64,000 nt of DNA from Pedobacter sp. GTDB taxonomy: Bacteria > Bacteroidota > Bacteroidia > Sphingobacteriales > Sphingobacteriaceae. Under the pieces are notes generated by a model that was given only the letters and a program-made list of their open reading frames with translations, did not search any database and had not been told where the DNA came from. Made by a program: the position numbers and the translations under genes. Position 1 is the first letter of the stretch. Each line of letters starts with the position of its first letter. The stretch lies in the NCBI GenBank assembly GCA_025351765.1, contig JANXVH010000110.1, positions 1 through 64,000 of the forward strand, written 5' to 3'. Shown one piece after another: positions 24,523 to 34,083 of this stretch.

Positions 24523-25794
24523 ATGACTAGAGATACTACAATTTTTGAATTGATTGACAGAGAATTGGACCGCCAAGAAAACGGGCTTGAACTGATTGCT
24601 TCAGAAAATTTTGTAAGCAAGCAGGTAATGGAAGCAGCCGGCTCTTGTTTAACCAATAAATATGCCGAAGGCCTTCCTGGTAAAAGGTATTATGGAGGTT
24701 GCCAGGTGGTTGATGAAATAGAAACACTTGCTATTGAGCGTGCTAAGAAGCTTTTTGGTGCGGCATGGGTAAATGTACAGCCGCATTCAGGTGCGCAGGC
24801 AAACGCAGCAGTGATGCTAGCCGTTATACAACCAGGAGATAAAATTCTTGGGTTTGATCTTTCTCATGGAGGTCACCTAACTCATGGCTCTCCTGTTAAT
24901 TTTTCGGGTAAATTGTATCACCCTTTATTTTATGGTGTAAAGAAAGAAGACGGATTAATTGACTATGCCAAGCTGGAAGAAATTGCGCTTGCAGAAAAAC
25001 CGAAACTAATTATCTGTGGCGCATCAGCTTATTCCAGAGAATGGGATTATGCCTTCATTAGGAGAGTAGCAGATCAAATTGGTGCATTGGTAATGGCTGA
25101 TATTTCTCACCCGGCGGGTATGATAGCCAGAGGTTTGCTTGCAAATCCACTTCCGCATTGCCATATCGTAACTACTACTACTCATAAAACATTACGCGGC
25201 CCCCGTGGCGGTATGATCATGATGGGTAAGGATTTTGAAAACCCATTTGGATTGAAAACTCCTAAGGGAGAAATCAGGATGATGTCATCTGTATTGGACA
25301 TGGCAGTATTTCCTGGTACACAAGGCGGACCATTAGAGCACATCATTGCTGCAAAAGCCATCGCCTTTGGAGAAGCTTTAAGCGATGAGTATTTAGCATA
25401 TATTACACAGGTTAAGGCCAATGCGCAGGCAATGGCTAAAGCTTTTATGGCAAAAGGATACGGTATCATATCAGGAGGTACAGATAACCACTTGATGTTA
25501 ATAGATCTTAGAAATAAGAACATCACCGGTAAGGTTGCTGAACAAGCTTTGGAAAAAGCAGACATTACAGTTAATAAGAACATGGTTCCTTTTGATGATA
25601 AATCTCCATTTGTTACTTCAGGAATTCGTGTTGGTACAGCAGCAATTACAACAAGGGGATTCAAGGAGGCTGATATGCAACAAATCGTTGATCTAATAGA
25701 TCAGGTGATTACAAATCCTGAAGATGAGCAAAGTTTGAAGCAAGTTAAAGAGCGCGTAATTGCATTAGTTAGCAGATTCCCCTTATACAAATAA
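24523..25794 (+). CDS. glyA: serine hydroxymethyltransferase
   Basis: GlyA interconverts serine and glycine with tetrahydrofolate and PLP, feeding one-carbon metabolism. The 423-residue protein shows [19 protein letters not shown], the [16 protein letters not shown] block, the [11 protein letters not shown] strand and the PLP lysine Lys222 in [14 protein letters not shown]. The length is normal. It is divergent from dxs, and a histidine kinase follows after 23 nt. A gcvT gene, also of glycine metabolism, lies at the far end of the window and is not linked. Confidence 0.97.
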
Positions 25795-25817: not shown

Positions 25818-28583
25818 ATGTCCTCCACAAGTAGCAAAAATTCCTCAGCCAGTGAAGATGACCGCGTTCAAGCGTTGCGGCAGTATGGTATATTGGATAC
25901 TCCTCAAGAGGAAGCATTTGATAACATTACCAGACTTGCTACCCTAATTTGCAATGTGCCTATCGCGCTGATCTCACTGGTCGATAAAGACCGCCTTTTT
26001 GTAAAATCCGTTGTTGGAGTAAAAACTACTTATGAATCCAGAGATGTGTCGTTTAGTTACCACACCATTTTAGGAGATGACCTATTAGAAGTAAAGGATA
26101 CCTTGCTTGATGGGCGTTTCGTTAATCACCTAAGAGTTGTAAATGTACCGCATGTGCGCTATTATGCTGGTGCGCCACTTATCGATCAGGATGGTTTTAA
26201 GCTGGGCGTGATTGGTGTTTTTGATACCAAACCAAATGCTTTGTCTGACGATCAAAAAGAAGGCTTAAGAATTCTTGCCAGGGAAATTATTACCCACCTT
26301 TCTTTAAAAAGGCAAAGTGTAGATTTGGAGGCCAAAACCAATCATTTTGAGGAGATCCTAAGCCTATCTACCGTTTCTCCTGAAATTCATTGCATACTGG
26401 ATAGCTCAGGTAAGATCATCTTTATCAATGACGCCGTAACCACTATACTTGAATATACAGCACAGGAGGCCACAGGTTTAAGTATGTGGAGCTTTTGTTA
26501 TGAGGAAGATCAGGTTCGTCTACGCCAAACCATAGAGCATGGACTTAGGGACAAAGTAAAGGGCTTTAACATTGATTTCAGGATAGTTAGTAAAACCGGA
26601 ATAATACGCTGGTTAAGCTGGAACATGGTGGTAAAAAGTCAACGCTGGTATACCTATGGAAGAGATATTACTGAAAGCAAACGGGTTGAAAACGAACTCA
26701 TGAAGCTGTCTTTCGTTGCCAGTAAGGTAAATAATGGTGTGGTAATTAATGATGCCAATAACCACGTAACTTGGGTAAATGCAGCCTTTGAAAAGATAAC
26801 TGGCTTTACAATGGAGGACCTGAAAGGGAAGCGACTAGGCGATCTTATTATTGGGCCTAAAAGTGATCTGGAATTATTGGCTAAAGCCAGAGAACAGATT
26901 GAGCACAACCAATCGTTCACGGTAGACCTTCTGGCTTACCGGAAAGACAAGCAGCCCATCTGGTTATCTATTTATAACACTGTAGTGTTAACTGATGAGG
27001 GCGAGGTAGATATAGAAGTAGAGATCATCATCGACATCACTGAAAAGAAGAATGCAGAAGAAGAGGTTCAGCTGTTGTCTATGGTGGCCAGTCAGACCAA
27101 TACCGGGGTAAACATTTCAGATAATAACGGGAACACCACTTGGATAAACAATGGCCTGGAAAAATTAACGGGCTATACACTTTCAGAACTTCAAGGAGAG
27201 AAATTGGGTAATGTCATTGCCAATACCGATAGTCAGCGAGAACTGATTTCAGCGTCCAGAAGTAAAGCCAGGAATAATGAGCCTTATGTTATCGAAGTGG
27301 AGGCAATTACAAAGCAAGGGAAACGTTTATGGCTTAATGTTGCAAATACACCTGTTGTTAATGAAAAAGGACAGGTAGTAAGGCAAATTGACCTGATTAC
27401 GGATATTACTCAACGCAAACAGGTAGAAGCGGAACTGGTAAAATCTAAAGAAAAGGCACTGCAATTAAGCGAAGCAAAGGAAATGTTCCTTTCTGTAATG
27501 AGTCACGAGATTAGAACGCCTTTAAATGCAGTGATAGGTATGACCCACCTATTATTAGAAAACGATCCTAAAGTTTCGCAGGTGGAAGATCTCAACATCC
27601 TTAAGTTCTCTGCAGAAAACCTGCTCAATATTATTAATGACATTCTTGATTTCACCAAGATTGATACTGGTCATCTCCAACTGGAATCACTTCCGATGGA
27701 TATTAAAGCGCTTGCTACAGATATTATAAGTTCTTTACGGGGAAGTGCTGAGAAGAGAGGAAATGCCTTAAATCTTGTTACTAAAGATCTTCCTAAACGT
27801 GTATTAGGAGATACGACCAGACTTTACCAGGTAATCATGAATCTGCTGGGTAATGCCATCAAATTTACAGCGCAGGGTACGGTTACGCTCAGCATTAGCT
27901 TAGCGGGGCAGGATGATAAAAATGCTGAGGTCTTTTTTCAGGTTAGCGATAGCGGAATTGGGATACCAGAAGATAAGCTATCCTATATATTCGAAACCTT
28001 TACACAGGCAAAGACTGACATTTCGAGGAAGTATGGAGGGACTGGATTAGGGCTGGCCATTACTAAAAAACTCCTTAAACTGTATAATTCTGATATTCTG
28101 GTAGCAAGTAACGAGGGTATAGGCACTACTTTTTCTTTTACCATATTTTTTGAAAAGGCATTCGGGGTAATAGAGGATTCCAATCCAGACAATCAATTTG
28201 CCAGCTTTGCCGGAAAATCAATACTGGTGGTAGACGATAATGAGATCAATATCTTAATTGCCAAACGGATTATAAGTAAATGGGGGTTTGTGGTTGATTT
28301 CGCTAATAGCGGGCAAGAAGCCATTCAAATGGTGATGAAGAAAGCGTACGACCTCATCTTTATGGACATTAAAATGCCCGGTATAGACGGATACGAAACC
28401 ACATCTATCATCAGGGAATTACCAGGTAATTATTACAAGCAAGTTCCAATAATTGCATTAACGGCATCTACCTTAAGTACTGAATACATTAAATTTAAGG
28501 AATCAGGAATGAATGGACATCTTTTAAAGCCATTTAAGCCAGAGGAGATCAAGCGCATAATCAATCAATATTTCTCTAAATAA
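25818..28583 (+). CDS. hybrid sensor histidine kinase/response regulator (GAF-PAS3-HisKA-HATPase-REC)
   Basis: The 921-residue protein lacks a signal peptide or membrane helix, so it is a cytoplasmic sensor. Order: GAF domain (about 15-165, opening DDRVQALRQYGILDTPQEEAFD), a PAS domain (about 185-295), two more PAS/PAC repeats that resemble each other (about 300-415 and 420-540, each ending in a DIT motif), then HisKA with His563 in SHEIRTPLNAVIG. The ATPase follows with GNAIKF, DSGIGIPEDKL and GGTGLGLAIT, and last comes a receiver with Asp850 in FMDIKMPG and the VVDDNEIN acidic pocket. All phosphotransfer residues are intact. There is no cognate regulator next door. The signal is unknown. 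Confidence 0.94.
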   Translation: MSSTSSKNSSASEDDRVQALRQYGILDTPQEEAFDNITRLATLICNVPIALISLVDKDRLFVKSVVGVKTTYESRDVSFSYHTILGDDLLEVKDTLLDGRFVNHLRVVNVPHVRYYAGAPLIDQDGFKLGVIGVFDTKPNALSDDQKEGLRILAREIITHLSLKRQSVDLEAKTNHFEEILSLSTVSPEIHCILDSSGKIIFINDAVTTILEYTAQEATGLSMWSFCYEEDQVRLRQTIEHGLRDKVKGFNIDFRIVSKTGIIRWLSWNMVVKSQRWYTYGRDITESKRVENELMKLSFVASKVNNGVVINDANNHVTWVNAAFEKITGFTMEDLKGKRLGDLIIGPKSDLELLAKAREQIEHNQSFTVDLLAYRKDKQPIWLSIYNTVVLTDEGEVDIEVEIIIDITEKKNAEEEVQLLSMVASQTNTGVNISDNNGNTTWINNGLEKLTGYTLSELQGEKLGNVIANTDSQRELISASRSKARNNEPYVIEVEAITKQGKRLWLNVANTPVVNEKGQVVRQIDLITDITQRKQVEAELVKSKEKALQLSEAKEMFLSVMSHEIRTPLNAVIGMTHLLLENDPKVSQVEDLNILKFSAENLLNIINDILDFTKIDTGHLQLESLPMDIKALATDIISSLRGSAEKRGNALNLVTKDLPKRVLGDTTRLYQVIMNLLGNAIKFTAQGTVTLSISLAGQDDKNAEVFFQVSDSGIGIPEDKLSYIFETFTQAKTDISRKYGGTGLGLAITKKLLKLYNSDILVASNEGIGTTFSFTIFFEKAFGVIEDSNPDNQFASFAGKSILVVDDNEINILIAKRIISKWGFVVDFANSGQEAIQMVMKKAYDLIFMDIKMPGIDGYETTSIIRELPGNYYKQVPIIALTASTLSTEYIKFKESGMNGHLLKPFKPEEIKRIINQYFSK

Positions 28584-28636
28584 AAAAGAGCCGATAACCA
28601 CTTTCGTGAACTATCGACTCCTAAATTAACGCTCTC
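28580..28636 (-). ncRNA. candidate small RNA, copy A (pair with 34024-34083)
   Basis: On the minus strand a 16-nt box GAGAGCGTTAATTTAG (28636-28621) is followed directly by a hairpin (28620-28588; arms GAGTCGATA / TATCGGCTC around a GAAA-capped inner part) and a six-T run (28587-28582). The same 16-nt box, an analogous hairpin sharing GTTATCGGC, and a T-rich end occur at 34024-34083 on the other strand. A promoter-like pair lies just upstream. The predicted RNA is about 55 nt. Its tail overlaps the last codon of the histidine kinase, and it sits downstream of the beta-helix lipoprotein gene on the same strand, so a 3'UTR-derived RNA or simple terminator is an alternative. Confidence 0.6.
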
Positions 28637-28641
28637 AAGAA

Positions 28642-28673
28642 CAAAGGAACGGATTATTTTTATATTTCCAAAA
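28642..28673 (-). promoter_or_regulatory. promoter candidate for small RNA copy A
   Basis: Reading the minus strand, TTTTG (28673-28669) is followed by a 19-nt spacer and TTCCTTTG (28649-28642), one base off TAnnTTTG. The box GAGAGCG begins 6 nt after it, where a transcript should start. Confidence 0.45.
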
Positions 28674-28683
28674 TAAATTTTAA

Positions 28684-30063
28684 TTATTGGTGTTCAAAGC
28701 AACCCAGTTTAGACGGGAATACCCGGGTTACACCGTTCATATCCTTGTATAAGAAGTCATTATAATACGTATCTGCCGTTAAAGAAATTCCTTTATTTAT
28801 TGCCGGACTAACAGTTTGCAGTCTAAAATTGTTGTTTACGGCATCTACAAACTTAGGATCTGTGTTTAGAAAATTATTGGCTCCATAAGTTTGTAAGGTA
28901 GTTTTGATCAAGTTGGCTTTAAAACTAGCGTTAATGGCAAAACTGCTTTTCTTTTCAACCGAAAGCTCTTCAGTCAGCACGCCCCAAATGATGTTGTTAG
29001 AAACTTCCAGACTCAGATCGCCAGATCGCCCATTACCAAAATCAGAAAAGTAAAGCGCAGGTGTCCTTCTAGAAAACTCCAGATTATATCCAGCAAAGGT
29101 ATTTTGCTTCAGGTTGTAACTACCACCACCTACACCATATACTAAATACTGCCCACAGTTATAGAACAAGTTGTTAAGGACAACTATGTTAGCCTGGTAG
29201 CCTGCCAAGCCCGCTACTGTCATGTTTTTTACCGTGCTGTTGCAGAGCAATAATTTTGGTGCCCCGTTAAAAGTTAAAGAATCTACCGTAAGCCCAATTG
29301 TGGCATTCTTAATCAAAGCATAATTTATCCTGGACGCTGTGCTGCCTGGATAAAATCTAATGCCCTGCCATTGGCCAGCTTCATTGTCGTAAAAAGACTC
29401 CGTACGGTCGCCCGCAAACAGAACTGGATTGTTTACGTTACCTGCTGCGTTAAGTGTACCGCGAATATTCATTGCAGCATTTCCATGAAACAGAATTCTA
29501 GTGCCAGGTGCCATAGTCAACGTTACATTTTCTCCTACTGTTACAGAACGGTTAATGATGTAGGGGAGACTGGCGCTCCATGTAGTGTTGGCAGAAATGG
29601 TTTCGCCATTTATAAATACAGCATTTTGTCCGTAGGCCACCAGTGCGATAGACTGCTTATTTCCATTTGTATTAAAAAGTACAGAATCCTCTACAATAAA
29701 AGGCTGATTAAAATTATTCGGATTAATAGTTGCCTTTATGAAAATGCTGATGGAATCCTTTCCAGATATCCTTACGTTGTCCTTTTTGTTAACGGAAACC
29801 CCGTTAATAATCAAGCTAAAAAAAGAACTGTTCCCGCGCCCCAGACTAATATTACTGATGCTAACAGCCTTGGAGTCTGTATTGTAAACTTTGATACGCC
29901 TGTTTACAGAGCCCACCGCTGTAAATACAGTATCAAATAGCACGGTATCAGTAGAGAAAGATAATTTAACACGTTGATCTGTTGTTACCCCATCGTTCTT
30001 CCTGCAGGCCGCAAACGCTAACATGCTGACGAAACAAACACACAGAAATATACGCATAAACAA
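28684..30063 (-). CDS. beta-helix lipoprotein of unknown function
   Basis: The 459-residue protein has a lipoprotein signal peptide with lipobox AFAAC (Cys19) and is then beta-rich. Residues about 30-140 resemble an Ig-like or abnormal-spindle-like sandwich (VNRRIKVYNTDSKAVSISNISLG), and about 150-420 a right-handed parallel beta-helix with short N-rich turns (NNIIWG, NNLFYNCG). The end KDMNGVTRVFPSKLGCFEHQ is the 'D-x-x-G-x-x-R-x-x-G-x-x-E' finish common in Bacteroidota beta-helix lipoproteins. It may be a surface adhesin or glycan-binding protein. It heads a minus-strand group that also includes comF after 11 nt. Confidence 0.68.
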   Translation of the reverse strand: MFMRIFLCVCFVSMLAFAACRKNDGVTTDQRVKLSFSTDTVLFDTVFTAVGSVNRRIKVYNTDSKAVSISNISLGRGNSSFFSLIINGVSVNKKDNVRISGKDSISIFIKATINPNNFNQPFIVEDSVLFNTNGNKQSIALVAYGQNAVFINGETISANTTWSASLPYIINRSVTVGENVTLTMAPGTRILFHGNAAMNIRGTLNAAGNVNNPVLFAGDRTESFYDNEAGQWQGIRFYPGSTASRINYALIKNATIGLTVDSLTFNGAPKLLLCNSTVKNMTVAGLAGYQANIVVLNNLFYNCGQYLVYGVGGGSYNLKQNTFAGYNLEFSRRTPALYFSDFGNGRSGDLSLEVSNNIIWGVLTEELSVEKKSSFAINASFKANLIKTTLQTYGANNFLNTDPKFVDAVNNNFRLQTVSPAINKGISLTADTYYNDFLYKDMNGVTRVFPSKLGCFEHQ

Positions 30064-30074
30064 ACTTAGCCTAC

Positions 30075-30779
30075 TTAGTCGGCAAAAGCAACAGCGGCTA
30101 TACTTAATTTTGCTATGTTACCCTTGCAAATCTCTAGGGCACAAGCCTCTATTGTAGCCCCGGTTGTAATAACATCATCTACCAGTAAAATATGCTTCCC
30201 TTTCAATTCTGCTGGTTTTGCCAACAAAAATACCATTTTCATATTTTCATGCCTGGCGTACCTGCTCCTGTTCGTTTGCGTACTCGTTTCTGTTACCTTA
30301 AGCAGGGCAGTTCTATTAACCGGCACATTCAGCACCGCCGCTATCCCTTTGGCAATACACTCACTTTGATTATAACCTCGTTTCTGCTCCTTTCGAGGAT
30401 GCATGGGCACTGGAACGATCAAATCTATTTCACCGAAAAAAGGAGATACCAACAACTTCTCAGCCACCATGGTACCCAGCTTTTCGCCAAGCAACCTTTG
30501 GTTTTTATATTTTAGGTGATGAATTAAATTTTGTACCCTTGCGCCCTTTTTAAAATTAAGCAATGCCATTGCTGCATTAAAATTTACCCGACCCCATAGC
30601 TGCTTAGCAACCCTATTTTTTAAGTCTAAATGATGGTCGGTGTACGAAATGTGGTACAAACAGTCTGTACAAATCAGCGACTCGCCCGCATACAAATGCT
30701 TAAAGCAACCATAACAAAGATTGGGGTAGAGCAGACCCAGCAGGTCTTCCAGAATTCTTTTCATGGCAATCATGCCCAA
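30075..30779 (-). CDS. ComF family phosphoribosyltransferase-like protein
   Basis: The 234-residue protein has the ComF layout: an N-terminal zinc-binding pair of CxxC motifs (CYGC, CTDC), then a type I phosphoribosyltransferase domain with the PRPP loop HILLVDDVITTGAT. ComF proteins support DNA uptake in competent bacteria; in many species the role is not established. A second possible start is the MKRIL methionine five residues in. It is encoded on the same strand as rlmN and the beta-helix lipoprotein, whose start lies 11 nt downstream of its stop. Family membership is firm, the cellular role is inferred. Confidence 0.87.
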   Translation of the reverse strand: MGMIAMKRILEDLLGLLYPNLCYGCFKHLYAGESLICTDCLYHISYTDHHLDLKNRVAKQLWGRVNFNAAMALLNFKKGARVQNLIHHLKYKNQRLLGEKLGTMVAEKLLVSPFFGEIDLIVPVPMHPRKEQKRGYNQSECIAKGIAAVLNVPVNRTALLKVTETSTQTNRSRYARHENMKMVFLLAKPAELKGKHILLVDDVITTGATIEACALEICKGNIAKLSIAAVAFAD

Positions 30780-30846
30780 ACCTGATCTATTTAAAAGATA
30801 AAGCGGTATTGTTTTCAGGAATTTATTTTAGAATTTATTTTGGCGC

Positions 30847-31911
30847 CTAACTTTCGTGAACTTCCTGCCCTTCTTTAACAGCCAGCTGTCCGCATGCCGC
30901 ATCAATATCCTTACCTCTGCTGCGTCTGATATTGGTGTTTACACCCTGACTTTTCAGGTAATTGGAAAATGCATCTATTTTATCCCCGTCTGCATTAATG
31001 AAATCAGCAAACTGAATTGGATTATATTCAATTAAATTTACTTTACAAGGGATGTGTTTACAGAACCTGGCCAACTCGATGGCATCCTGTAGCTCATCAT
31101 TAAAGTTATTGAATACAATGTATTCGTATGTAACTGGATTTTTAGTTTTAGAAAAATAATATTTAAGCGCCTCTTCCAATGCTTTTAAAGAATTCGCCTC
31201 GTTAATGGGCATAATCTCATTGCGTTTCTTATCATTAGCGGCATGCAACGAAAGCGCAAGGTTAAACTTGGCACCATCATCACCCAGCTTTTTAATCATC
31301 TTGGCTATCCCGGCAGTAGAAACTGTGATGCGCTTGTAAGACATATTTAAACCATCAGGAGCGGTAATGCGGTCTATAGATTTTAAAACATTAGCATAGT
31401 TTAACAAAGGCTCGCCCATACCCATATAAACGATATTGGTAAGCGGTACCTTATAATTCAGCTTAGCCTGCTGATCAATTAACACCACCTGGTCGTATAT
31501 TTCATCGGCATTCAGGTTACGTTTGCGGTCCATGTAACCGGTTGCACAAAACTTACAAGTTAAACTGCAGCCAACTTGAGAACTTACACAAGCCGTCATC
31601 CTGTCGTCCATTGGTATCAACACCCCCTCCACAATGTTTCCATCATACAGTCTGAATGCATTTTTTATGGTATGGTCGTTACTGAATTGAGAATTGCTAA
31701 CCGCTACTACATTAATGGTATAATGGTCGTCCAGTTTGGCTCTTAATTCTTTAGAAAGATTACTCATTTCCTCAAAAGAACGGGCAGATTTTTCCCAGAG
31801 CCATTGATAAACTTGCTTGGCCCTATAGGAAGGCTCCTTCATGGCAACGAAGTGTTCCTGTAGCTGCAACAAATCCAGCGCGCGAATATCTATTTTCTTA
31901 GTAGCAGGCAT
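30847..31911 (-). CDS. rlmN: 23S rRNA/tRNA adenine C2-methyltransferase RlmN
   Basis: RlmN is a radical-SAM enzyme that methylates C2 of A2503 in 23S rRNA and A37 of some tRNAs. The 354-residue protein has the CxxxCxxC cluster motif at Cys115, Cys119 and Cys122 (CSLTCKFCATGYM), the GMGEPLLNY block, and the methyl-carrying cysteine Cys340 in the C-terminal GKDIDAACGQLA. All catalytic residues are present and the length is normal. A Cfr-type resistance enzyme is less likely given the housekeeping context. Confidence 0.95.
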   Translation of the reverse strand: MPATKKIDIRALDLLQLQEHFVAMKEPSYRAKQVYQWLWEKSARSFEEMSNLSKELRAKLDDHYTINVVAVSNSQFSNDHTIKNAFRLYDGNIVEGVLIPMDDRMTACVSSQVGCSLTCKFCATGYMDRKRNLNADEIYDQVVLIDQQAKLNYKVPLTNIVYMGMGEPLLNYANVLKSIDRITAPDGLNMSYKRITVSTAGIAKMIKKLGDDGAKFNLALSLHAANDKKRNEIMPINEANSLKALEEALKYYFSKTKNPVTYEYIVFNNFNDELQDAIELARFCKHIPCKVNLIEYNPIQFADFINADGDKIDAFSNYLKSQGVNTNIRRSRGKDIDAACGQLAVKEGQEVHES

Positions 31912-31936
31912 TTAGGCGCAAAGATACCAAAAAAAA

Positions 31937-33028
31937 TTACCTTTTCGGACTTCTGGTTTTAGCTCCCGGGGTGCCTGATCTGCCATTTCCAGGTTTAACA
32001 GGTCGTTTACTTGGTCCACCGCTTTTATTCCAATCGCCAGTTCCAGTACTTGCCGATCTGGATCCGGCTGCCGCTGCTCCCCTTGCAGCACTAGCAGGTT
32101 TAGCGCCTGCCTTGCCTTTACCGCCAGCTGGTCTATCTGCCCTGCTAACAGAAGAAGAACGACTTGCACCTGGCGAACCTTTTGCAGATTTATAACCTGG
32201 GGTTCTGCTAGAAGCACGCTTAGGCGTAATGTTCTCCATCAGGTTTTCCTCAAAAACAGTCTTAGGCTTTTTATTAACACGTTTTGGCACAGCCGATGCC
32301 CCTTCAAGAGAACTCGATTTAGCCACCATATTGTAGATGTCGGTTTGTTCCTGCGGAGTTAGCTCTCTCCACTCGCCAACAGGAATGCCTTTTACACTAA
32401 CATTCATAATGCGTACCCGTTCCAGCTTGGTTACATCAAAGCCAAAATGCTCGCACATCCTTCTAATTTGTCTGTTAAGGCCTTGGATCAAAGTAATTTT
32501 GAAAGTAAAATTACTTTCCTTAACCACCTTACATTTCTTGGTCATAACGCCCAATACCGGAACACCTTTAGCCATTCCGGTCATAAAAGCTTCCGTAAGC
32601 GGCTTGTTTACGGTAACTACATACTCCTTTTCGTGGTTGTTACCAGCACGGAGGATCTTGTTTACCAAATCGCCATTATTCGTTAGAAAAATAAGACCCT
32701 GAGAATCTTTATCCAACCTGCCGATAGGAAATACCCGTTCACTATGGTTAACATGATCAACAATATTGCTTTTAACACCAGCTTCGGTGGTACTTGTTAT
32801 TCCAACTGGTTTATTATAAGCAATAAGAACTGTATTTTCTGCAGCCTGAGGCTCGATAGTCTGACCATTTACCAAAACAATATCGCCAAAGATCACTTTG
32901 TCGCCCACTTTAGCTTTTTTACCGTTAATGTATACATTACCCTGCTCAATATATCTGTCTGCCGCCCTTCTGGAGCACAAACCGCTTTCACTAATGTATT
33001 TATTTAATCGGATATCAGACTCAGCCAT
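31937..33028 (-). CDS. RsuA/RluB/RluF-type pseudouridine synthase with basic C-terminal tail
   Basis: The 363-residue protein has an N-terminal S4 RNA-binding domain ([21 protein letters not shown]) and a catalytic domain with the family's [19 protein letters not shown], where the active-site Asp lies. [17 protein letters not shown] is the conserved RluB/F block. It converts uridine to pseudouridine in rRNA (the RluB/RluF side of the family by motif). From about residue 245 it has a 115-residue tail rich in Lys, Arg, Ser, Ala, Gly and Pro with no fold, which may add RNA affinity. rlmN lies 25 nt downstream. Confidence 0.9.
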
Positions 33029-33110
33029 AGTTGGGGTATAAATTGAAATATTTTACAAAGAAATCAATTTATACCCACATATACTACCAAAATCTTTAAA
33101 GGCCTGATTA

Positions 33111-33608
33111 TTAGAGTGCAGTTTCGTCGGCGCTTGGGCCATAGCTGCCAGGAATCGGGATGTCCAGCAATCTTAAATAGACCCCAAGTTGCGCCCGGTG
33201 GTGAATGAGTTGGCTGATACTCATTCTAATGATATCGGTTTTTGCCCTAGTGCTGTAAATCTGGTCGCCATTCCTCATGGTCCAGGGCTCGTCCAATACA
33301 ATTTCGTTTTTATCTACCAATTGTTCTCGGGCTTCAATTAAGTTTTTCTCAAAAACTGCGATGATATCCGCTGTATTATCAATAGCTGGAGCAACGTGCG
33401 TATTATCGCCAAAGTCAAGCTCATCGGTGGTAAGTGTTATGCTTACCCAGCCCGGTAATTCGGCAACGTGGGTGGCGAGCCTTTTAAGCGTCATGCTTTT
33501 TTGGTGGGGCAGCCAGTCGAATTTCTCTGCAGGCACTATTGATAACATTTTGCGTGTAGTTAACGCTTCTTCTTCCAGTTCCCTTAAAAAGGTTTTGATT
33601 CTGTTCAT
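33111..33608 (-). CDS. DinB family protein
   Basis: This is a four-helix DinB/YfiT-type protein of about 165 residues. The ATG at 33608 (MNRIKTFLREL) is preferred over an upstream start at 33650, because it gives the normal N-terminal helix, and a near-consensus TTTCTTTG box lies just above it on the minus strand. Possible metal-binding histidines are in ATHVAELPGW and LIHHRAQLGVYLR; the end IPGSYGPSADE is typical of the family. Members are often metal-dependent transferases or thiol-related enzymes of unknown substrate. No thiol pathway gene is adjacent. Confidence 0.85.
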   Translation of the reverse strand: MNRIKTFLRELEEEALTTRKMLSIVPAEKFDWLPHQKSMTLKRLATHVAELPGWVSITLTTDELDFGDNTHVAPAIDNTADIIAVFEKNLIEAREQLVDKNEIVLDEPWTMRNGDQIYSTRAKTDIIRMSISQLIHHRAQLGVYLRLLDIPIPGSYGPSADETAL

Positions 33609-33768
33609 ATCATATTTATTTTGAACAAAGAAAAGAGCGGCGACTGACAACCCTATGGCAGTGTGTAATTTGTGCTAAGAATTAAATTCGCAGGAACAAT
33701 CCGTAGTATTGTAAACACTTATTATTAAAGCAAGACTCCTACCCGGTTATTATATGGATGGCATAGAA

Positions 33769-33868
33769 ATAGGACTTTGATAGGAGTTACATAGGACTTA
33801 CATAGGACTCGAGAAGGAGGTAAAGCCCTATTCAACCCTTATGTAACCCCTGTATAGCCCTTATGTGT
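33769..33868. repeat. two opposed arms of 11-bp tandem repeats
   Basis: The left arm has four exact-period 11-bp units starting at 33769, 33780, 33791 and 33802 (ATAGGACTTTG, ATAGGAGTTAC, ATAGGACTTAC, ATAGGACTCGA). The right arm has units in inverse orientation starting at 33826, 33836, 33847 and 33858 (CCCTATTCAA, CCCTTATGTAA, CCCCTGTATAG, CCCTTATGTGT). The arms are imperfect reverse complements (core TTACATAGG against CCTTATGTAA) around a 13-nt centre. Eleven bases is about one helical turn, so each unit faces the same side of the DNA. Confidence 0.75.
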
Positions 33869-34011
33869 GTAACAGCCATATAAAACGACGGTAAAGCGCA
33901 GTTGCAACAACTATTTAGATTTATAGAAGCCCTATCAAGCGTGCAATTGTTGGGATTTATTTAAATAAAAAAGTTTTTTTTAAAAAATTATGCTATTTCT
34001 TTTGGAGTATG

Positions 34012-34019
34012 TATCTTTG
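34012..34019 (+). promoter_or_regulatory. -7 promoter box for small RNA copy B
   Basis: TATCTTTG fits TAnnTTTG and ends 4 nt before GAGAGCG of the small-RNA candidate. At the -33 position only a weak TATG-like sequence is seen. Confidence 0.5.
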
Positions 34020-34023
34020 TCGT

Positions 34024-34083
34024 GAGAGCGTTAATTTAGTGCCGGTAATTTGCTGCAAAGCAGTTATCGGCATTTCTTTATTT
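34024..34083 (+). ncRNA. candidate small RNA, copy B (pair with 28580-28636)
   Basis: The 16-nt box GAGAGCGTTAATTTAG (34024-34039) is followed by a hairpin (34040-34072; TGCCGGTAA paired with TTATCGGCA, inner CTGC-AAA-GCAG) and a T-rich tail (34073-34083). A TATCTTTG promoter box sits 4 nt upstream. Box, hairpin position, GTTATCGGC arm and T-rich end all match the minus-strand copy at 28.6 kb, while the rest differs, as expected of a family of short regulatory RNAs of about 60 nt. No reading frame of note lies inside. I cannot tie it to a named Rfam family by eye. Confidence 0.68.

Follow-up and report, generated by a model that had tools for sequence, protein, structure and literature searches.

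Very short RNA genes with a shared 16-nt box: a candidate family in Pedobacter, related genera and phages

Two copies of one 16-nt box, each followed by a hairpin, lie 5.4 kb apart on opposite strands of a Pedobacter contig, and the question raised by this locus is whether they mark genes of small RNAs (sRNAs). The stretch analyzed, hereafter the window, comprises 64,000 nucleotides of Pedobacter sp. (contig JANXVH010000110.1, positions 1 to 64,000). Copy 1 of the box, GAGAGCGTTAATTTAG, is on the minus strand and copy 2 on the plus strand (Table 1). Judged from their sequence, the window elements look like members of an unlisted family of very short RNA genes, present in all Pedobacter genomes examined. 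On balance, we think it somewhat probable that the family consists of sRNAs built from a seed and a terminator, which are multicopy in Sphingobacteriaceae, in many cases apparently driven by sigma factors of the extracytoplasmic function (ECF) type, and copied by phages. The genomes compared lend support to the family as such, to its architecture and conservation, to its promoter classes and to the phage copies.

Both boxes were exact matches, as the first-pass annotation had reported, and they were the only matches in the window with up to three mismatches allowed. Inside the window the box alone is weak evidence, because at least two matches of this quality were also obtained in 16 of 100 shuffles. 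The count in the whole genome settles the reality of the box: there were six exact copies and one with a single mismatch, while the control gave 0. The hairpin and T-rich run directly 3' of each box, noticed at first pass, were confirmed by folding (copy 1: -17.9 kcal/mol, z = -3.6; copy 2: -20.3 kcal/mol, z = -3.8). The one-mismatch copy of this genome (L007:1-80) adjoins a 5S rRNA gene at a contig end.

We observed the exact box in 142 of 399 genomes of the family, own genome included. According to a hand count of rows, it was present in 105 of 105 Pedobacter genomes (own included; 2 to 15 copies each) and in 37 of 294 genomes of other genera, and the reversed-box control gave 0 in every one of the 399. 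Eight other genera had mostly a single copy where any was present; among two large other genera, g53 had the exact box once and g55 never. A second draw with one mismatch allowed gave 1 to 18 matches in each of 59 further Pedobacter genomes (59/59), including a 2.3-Mb assembly (G038) with one match only. Outside the family, 3 of 39 genomes from other families of the class had one match at this setting, versus 4 with a control match. With three mismatches allowed in four Pedobacter genomes, the matches listed comprised exact copies and almost nothing at one or two mismatches, and the total number of matches was at the control level. It appears that in Pedobacter the box either stays intact or is absent. 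Public sequences gave at least 120 stretches, and among the matches listed 72 of 80 loci had Pedobacter titles. A copy on a contig titled Flavobacteriaceae (L135:6552-6567) is nearly identical to that of Pedobacter xixiisoli (L143), and this assembly may be mislabelled.

Further, we compared the architecture of 178 distinct Pedobacter copies. Ten loci are left out of these counts (L008, L009, L084, L094, L101, L113, L115, L135, L171 and L182) for a non-Pedobacter title or source, a coding position or, in L171 and L182, a missing hairpin that had been seen beforehand; hairpin and intergenic rates are slightly inflated because hairpin-less and coding rows were dropped. The 50 nt after the box folded at a minimum free energy of -12 kcal/mol or lower in 175 of 178 copies (an uncontrolled count), and a strict test for hairpin and T-tail was passed by 140 of 178, versus 1.3% of 600 intergenic control sites. 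For covariation we used two alignments, A1 of copies from other genera and A2 of Pedobacter copies, mostly from the window's locus. Double-change cells numbered 11 versus 2.3 in shuffles for A1 and 22 versus 5.5 for A2; the structures were predicted from the same alignments, which favours them in pair counts. Both the further copies and the covarying stems that the first-pass annotation had predicted were thus found. The box was unpaired in both consensus folds. Its identity within A1 and A2 is by selection, because their sequences were found by the box; independent evidence for its conservation comes from the three-mismatch search of four genomes and, outside Pedobacter, from the drifted boxes described below.

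We then looked at what precedes the box. A TAnnTTTG-like box had been proposed before each window copy; for copy 2 it is exact, and for copy 1 one base departs from it. The available text of PMC9723704 places a box of this kind at -12 to -5 in Flavobacterium; the +1 would therefore be the first base of the box in copy 2 and one base before the box in copy 1. TAnnTTTG was found upstream of the box in 23 of 178 Pedobacter copies. A CGT -10 box stood at fixed spacing in 99 of 178, and a -35-like element together with CGT in 92 of 178, versus 1.5% of controls. Either promoter class lay just upstream in 122 of 178 copies versus 6.0% of control sites, with patterns written after the copies had been viewed. 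In the same available text (PMC9723704), a conserved CGT box of Flavobacterium is interpreted as ECF-type. By sequence pattern, an ECF-type promoter at fixed spacing was found in Pedobacter copies and also in copies of other genera; both window copies have TTTG-type boxes, not ECF-type ones.

These promoters bear on whether the elements are only terminators or 3' untranslated region motifs of neighbouring genes. We compared neighbours for 155 Pedobacter copies (L017 and L197 were also left out). The upstream predicted gene was on the same strand in 99 of 155; for 44 of these the distance from that gene to the box was 41-60 nt, and the hairpin may therefore serve to end the gene as well. However, the upstream gene was on the opposite strand in 50 of 155, the promoter patterns at fixed spacing precede 122 of 178 copies versus 6% of control sites, and an ordinary terminator has no need of an invariant 16-nt box. 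The copies are thus not confined to terminators of neighbouring genes, the outcome that the first-pass annotation had set against its own proposal, and phage copies occur in several other arrangements. We regard this explanation as improbable.

The position of copy 1 is itself conserved. It sits at an rlmN-comF-RNA-glyA locus, and the same locus is kept in 11 other genera. In a comparison of 30 loci from 11 genera (L355 and some weak matches gave no line), comF or a relative of the gene at 28684 was upstream of the RNA in 26 of 30 and glyA was downstream in 20 of 30; in 14 of 30 it was a relative of the gene at 28684 that directly preceded the RNA gene. Nearly all copies read from other genera have in common one hairpin type and a GTAAC/GAAAC-type promoter. 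We built a covariance model, R1, from the copies of other genera. It scored the window copies at 29.6 and 24.1 bits, and the next-best window match at 15.7. It also detected homologues with drifted boxes, in which GAGAGCG was retained in 9 of 10 read and the AU part drifts; drifted-box copies of genera g44 and g49 and one of g61 occupy the same rlmN-comF locus. Weak matches of R1, many of them plain hairpins, carry no weight, because something matched at E <= 1 in 61 of 61 genomes. The family probably began as one gene that followed rlmN-comF and was read from an ECF-type promoter.

Table 1. Coordinates of the two box elements in the window and of the genes around copy 1
Feature	Position	Strand	Basis or spacing
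Copy 1, 16-nt box, putative RNA 5' end	28621..28636	-	sequence match
Copy 1, terminator hairpin	28586..28622	-	folding; covariation of relatives
Copy 1, T-run, overlapping the stop codon of the convergent kinase gene	28582..28587	-	
Copy 1, TTCCTTTG, primary-sigma-like -7 box, one mismatch	28642..28649	-	5 nt before box
Copy 2, 16-nt box, putative +1 at 34024	34024..34039	+	sequence match
Copy 2, terminator hairpin	34038..34073	+	centroid structure from folding
Copy 2, T-rich tail	34073..34083	+	
Copy 2, TATCTTTG, exact Bacteroidota -7 box TAnnTTTG	34012..34019	+	4 nt before box
Gene just upstream of copy 1, exported-looking product	28684..30063	-	no Pfam/NCBIfam match
comF-like phosphoribosyltransferase, in conserved locus	30075..30779	-	
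rlmN, in conserved locus	30847..31911	-	
PAS/GAF hybrid histidine kinase, convergent neighbour of copy 1	25818..28583	+	
Gene beyond the kinase from copy 1, which we take to be glyA-like	24523..25794	+	named from its sequence

Copy 1 is flanked by a convergent gene pair whose 3' ends face it; copy 2 is intergenic, and both neighbouring genes run on the opposite strand. The TTATCGGC 3' arm is common to both and 'AT' is missing after the box in both, which suggests that the window copies are close paralogues of one subtype, lacking 'AT' after the box (A2 type). In L012, L104, L116, L130 and L275 a tandem pair is conserved, and copy 1 is similar to its second member.

Many copies, and tandem copies in several genomes, could also point to an element acting as DNA, either a mobile repeat present at scattered sites or an operator that overlaps +1. 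Yet flanks and hairpins differ between loci and stems covary within loci, several loci are found repeatedly beside the same genes, the box lacks dyad symmetry and keeps a fixed order before the hairpin, and two viral copies are placed inside a hairpin loop. An element of this kind is very improbable.

The exact box was also detected in 45 viral contigs, versus 11 with the reversed pattern. Of 46 viral box copies, 35 lay in no open reading frame of at least 110 codons, and 10 of the 11 reversed-control matches were in frames of at least 245 codons; a degenerate box pattern gave 11 new viral matches, all in frames of at least 324 codons. By position and hairpin, 38 of the 45 contigs were judged to carry real elements and 7 to be chance matches in coding sequence. 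A strict stem test (perfect stem of at least 6) was passed by 20 of 46 viral copies; the remaining stems have mismatches or a longer reach and were judged by eye, uncontrolled. No match in INPHARED phages spanned the whole box, a weak negative, as a lone 16-mer could miss the E-value limit.

Three carriers were microvirus-like contigs of 4.5-5.6 kb whose capsid proteins share 62-77% identity. In one of them PHROGs identifies the genes on either side as major head and replication initiation protein, and the other two have homologous flanks; the element, with a TATATTTG-type promoter, fills the gap between these genes. The element of tailed phages is placed among head genes and can face either way. 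Other viral copies have the box flanked by a hairpin on each side, inside a hairpin loop or close to tRNA genes. In L044 and L070 the loop belongs to a GC-rich hairpin.

The tRNA genes close to the box in phage loci L058, L059 (where the box directly follows the tRNA), L060 and L065, and 230 bases off in L069, could point to a cis-acting leader or processing element, for example for phage tRNA operons. At L040:7773-8137 Rfam models likewise give a tRNA and a permuted tmRNA beside the box element, though ARAGORN finds neither. However, ARAGORN detected no tRNA in 22 of 27 viral loci tested, and host copies have no fixed downstream gene. Among the explanations considered, we rate this one lowest.

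In the seed-plus-terminator reading, which we prefer, a typical gene would be minimal, made of a promoter, the box starting no more than about 1 nt from the predicted +1, and an intrinsic terminator; the predicted RNA would be about 55-65 nt long, its 5' box unpaired. The ancestral promoter would have been roughly G(T/A)AACCTTT-N16-CGTAwAAGwA. In Pedobacter the gene appears to have expanded, in most cases to 2-15 exact copies under different promoters, and several signals would therefore make the same RNA. The 5' box, with its core GAGAGCG, may act as a seed for base pairing with mRNAs whose translation it would lower, in the manner of FopS of Bacteroides and RybB of E. coli; by this analogy a 5' seed seems the most likely mechanism. 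Phages that have the box may use it to feed this circuit or to bend it. We infer here transcription, its exact start, the sigma factor, base pairing, the sign of regulation and the benefit to phages.

Several results weigh against this reading. Neither window hairpin was listed by a simple consensus terminator scan, which accepts only unbroken stems with loops of 3-8; both were missed because each stem has an interruption. Neither promoter pattern was matched by 56 of 178 copies. Double-change pairs in A2 numbered 6 versus 3.7, a level reached by 37 of 500 shuffles. In A1 the further pair types were not above shuffles, and the alignment slid by +1 column still gave 5 double-change pairs and 8 cells. 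The box was internal, not 5'-terminal, in 10 of 164 host copies and in many phage copies. Invariance of the full 16 nt exceeds what an mRNA seed usually needs, and Hfq was found in none of the 8 genomes searched, which include 7 of Pedobacter.

The searches for targets belong on the same side. Pairing of the 5' box with targets had been suggested at first pass, and no significant target was obtained in start regions, rRNA or tRNA/tmRNA. Complements of the box at start codons were at most weakly enriched as k-mers (TTAACGCT, 11 vs 3.6 expected, 5 of 270 permutations as high); a second k-mer test gave 5 vs 2.1 (41 of 357 as high), with AATTAACGC as the best word (4 vs 0.9). Among duplex energies for 1788 start regions, 12 were at or below -15, versus 7.7 +/- 5.1 for 12 shuffled boxes, and those of 12 SusC-like genes were not below the rest. 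The best rRNA duplex (-15.0) was equalled by 32 of 60 shuffled boxes, and for 28 tRNA/tmRNA genes 35 of 40 shuffles were as good. SusD and secreted genes showed no pairing preference. The longest stretch of box complement in 2.4 Mb of G018 was 13 nt (shuffled boxes: mean 12.5, maximum 14). A few true targets could be missed, because the searches covered 2.4 Mb of one genome and the flanks of others. L017 has a box that lacks the hairpin and whose complement stands before a 20-codon open reading frame; we considered it as a possible target and treat it as an isolated case.

An additional hairpin stands upstream in ten host copies (L033, L037, L085, L095, L109, L159, L168, L174, L192 and L194), and the TGAGAG in its loop (GGGGTGAGAG) matches the way the box begins.

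The main rival to the seed is a box that serves as a protein-binding handle or titration site, so that host copies load or titrate a protein and phage copies are decoys. Sixteen nucleotides are kept whole in Pedobacter and phages with no RNA target visible, and the phage box occurs in many contexts, including the two hairpin loops, the site between two hairpins and the one after a tRNA. On the other side, mainly the GAGAGCG part stays in distant genera, and no candidate protein emerged. We set Hfq aside as partner, as well as RRM proteins: RRM_1 was present in 4 of 4 Pedobacter genomes tested and in G112, which has no exact box, and absent in G119 and G156, in which the RNA is present, so RRM proteins do not appear to follow the distribution of the RNA. 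A protein handle seems rather unlikely to us.

We also considered a bolder idea, which we put forward tentatively and regard as doubtful, that the box is a universal RNA address read by one conserved partner, and that unrelated phages, from the ~5-kb microvirus-like to the tailed ones, independently took it up in different RNA contexts to capture, mimic or titrate this partner. If this is true, address reading would be an RNA-level contest between phage and host in a group without Hfq. For the question of how sRNAs act in Bacteroidota without Hfq, the family offers an object that can be counted across a genus: its motif is invariant, several signals are predicted to converge on one RNA, a probable ancestral locus is conserved, and some phages with copies are so small that each 60 nt should matter. 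With it, the search for the missing RNA partner can be put to a direct test.

Finally, we compared the elements with known families. Rfam gave no match over the scanned elements (the window and sets of 15 and 18 loci) at gathering or permissive thresholds, in line with the first-pass annotation, and neither Flavo-1 (RF01705) nor Pedo-repair (RF01715) reached its gathering score there. Pedo-repair is the sole Pedobacter motif named in the available text of a motif survey (PMC2864571). Neither the box and its complement nor a Pedobacter sRNA or RNA-motif family of this kind was found in the literature searched, with subscription papers outside its scope. Flavo-1, to which the first-pass annotation had pointed, resembles our family in having many copies in Bacteroidota and is annotated as sRNA by Rfam; it proved to be a different family by sequence and fold. 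It was found in 25 of 40 Pedobacter genomes, with tens of matches in many (89 in G036, all scored candidates) and none in G018 and others having the box, and has more the look of a dispersed repeat than of a single sRNA gene. One Flavo-1 match (L035:1597-1662) is a separate stretch just downstream of a box element.

RybB and MicA are enterobacterial ECF-sigma-driven sRNAs with known targets, and RybB has a conserved 5'-terminal seed of about 16 nt. They share with the box family an ECF-type promoter, a terminator and, for RybB, a conserved 5'-terminal stretch; in contrast to the box family, with Hfq in 0 of 8 genomes and several gene copies, they are Hfq-dependent and single-copy. The csRNAs of Streptococcus and LhrC1-5 of Listeria, as far as the available descriptions go, are likewise several near-identical sRNAs per genome, but belong to other phyla and other regulators.

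The closest known kind is FopS of Bacteroides, together with GibS. No FopS model was matched in Rfam (release 15, which may not include one). The available texts describe FopS as multicopy, with 14 copies in a Bacteroides species (PMC11697453, PMC7366714) and one phage copy, repressing SusC-type mRNAs and associating with RbpB (PMC11697453). Compared by description, the likeness lies in an unpaired 5' stretch with a terminator hairpin and in multiple gene copies, both found here by sequence and folding, as well as in a similar copy number and a phage copy. In contrast to FopS, no consistent RRM co-occurrence and no SusC preference were found for the box family in the genomes and genes compared, and more than half of its promoters look ECF-type, whereas those of FopS are of the sigma-ABfr type. 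It further differs in that one whole 16-nt box is common to its copies and is carried by three or more types of phage.

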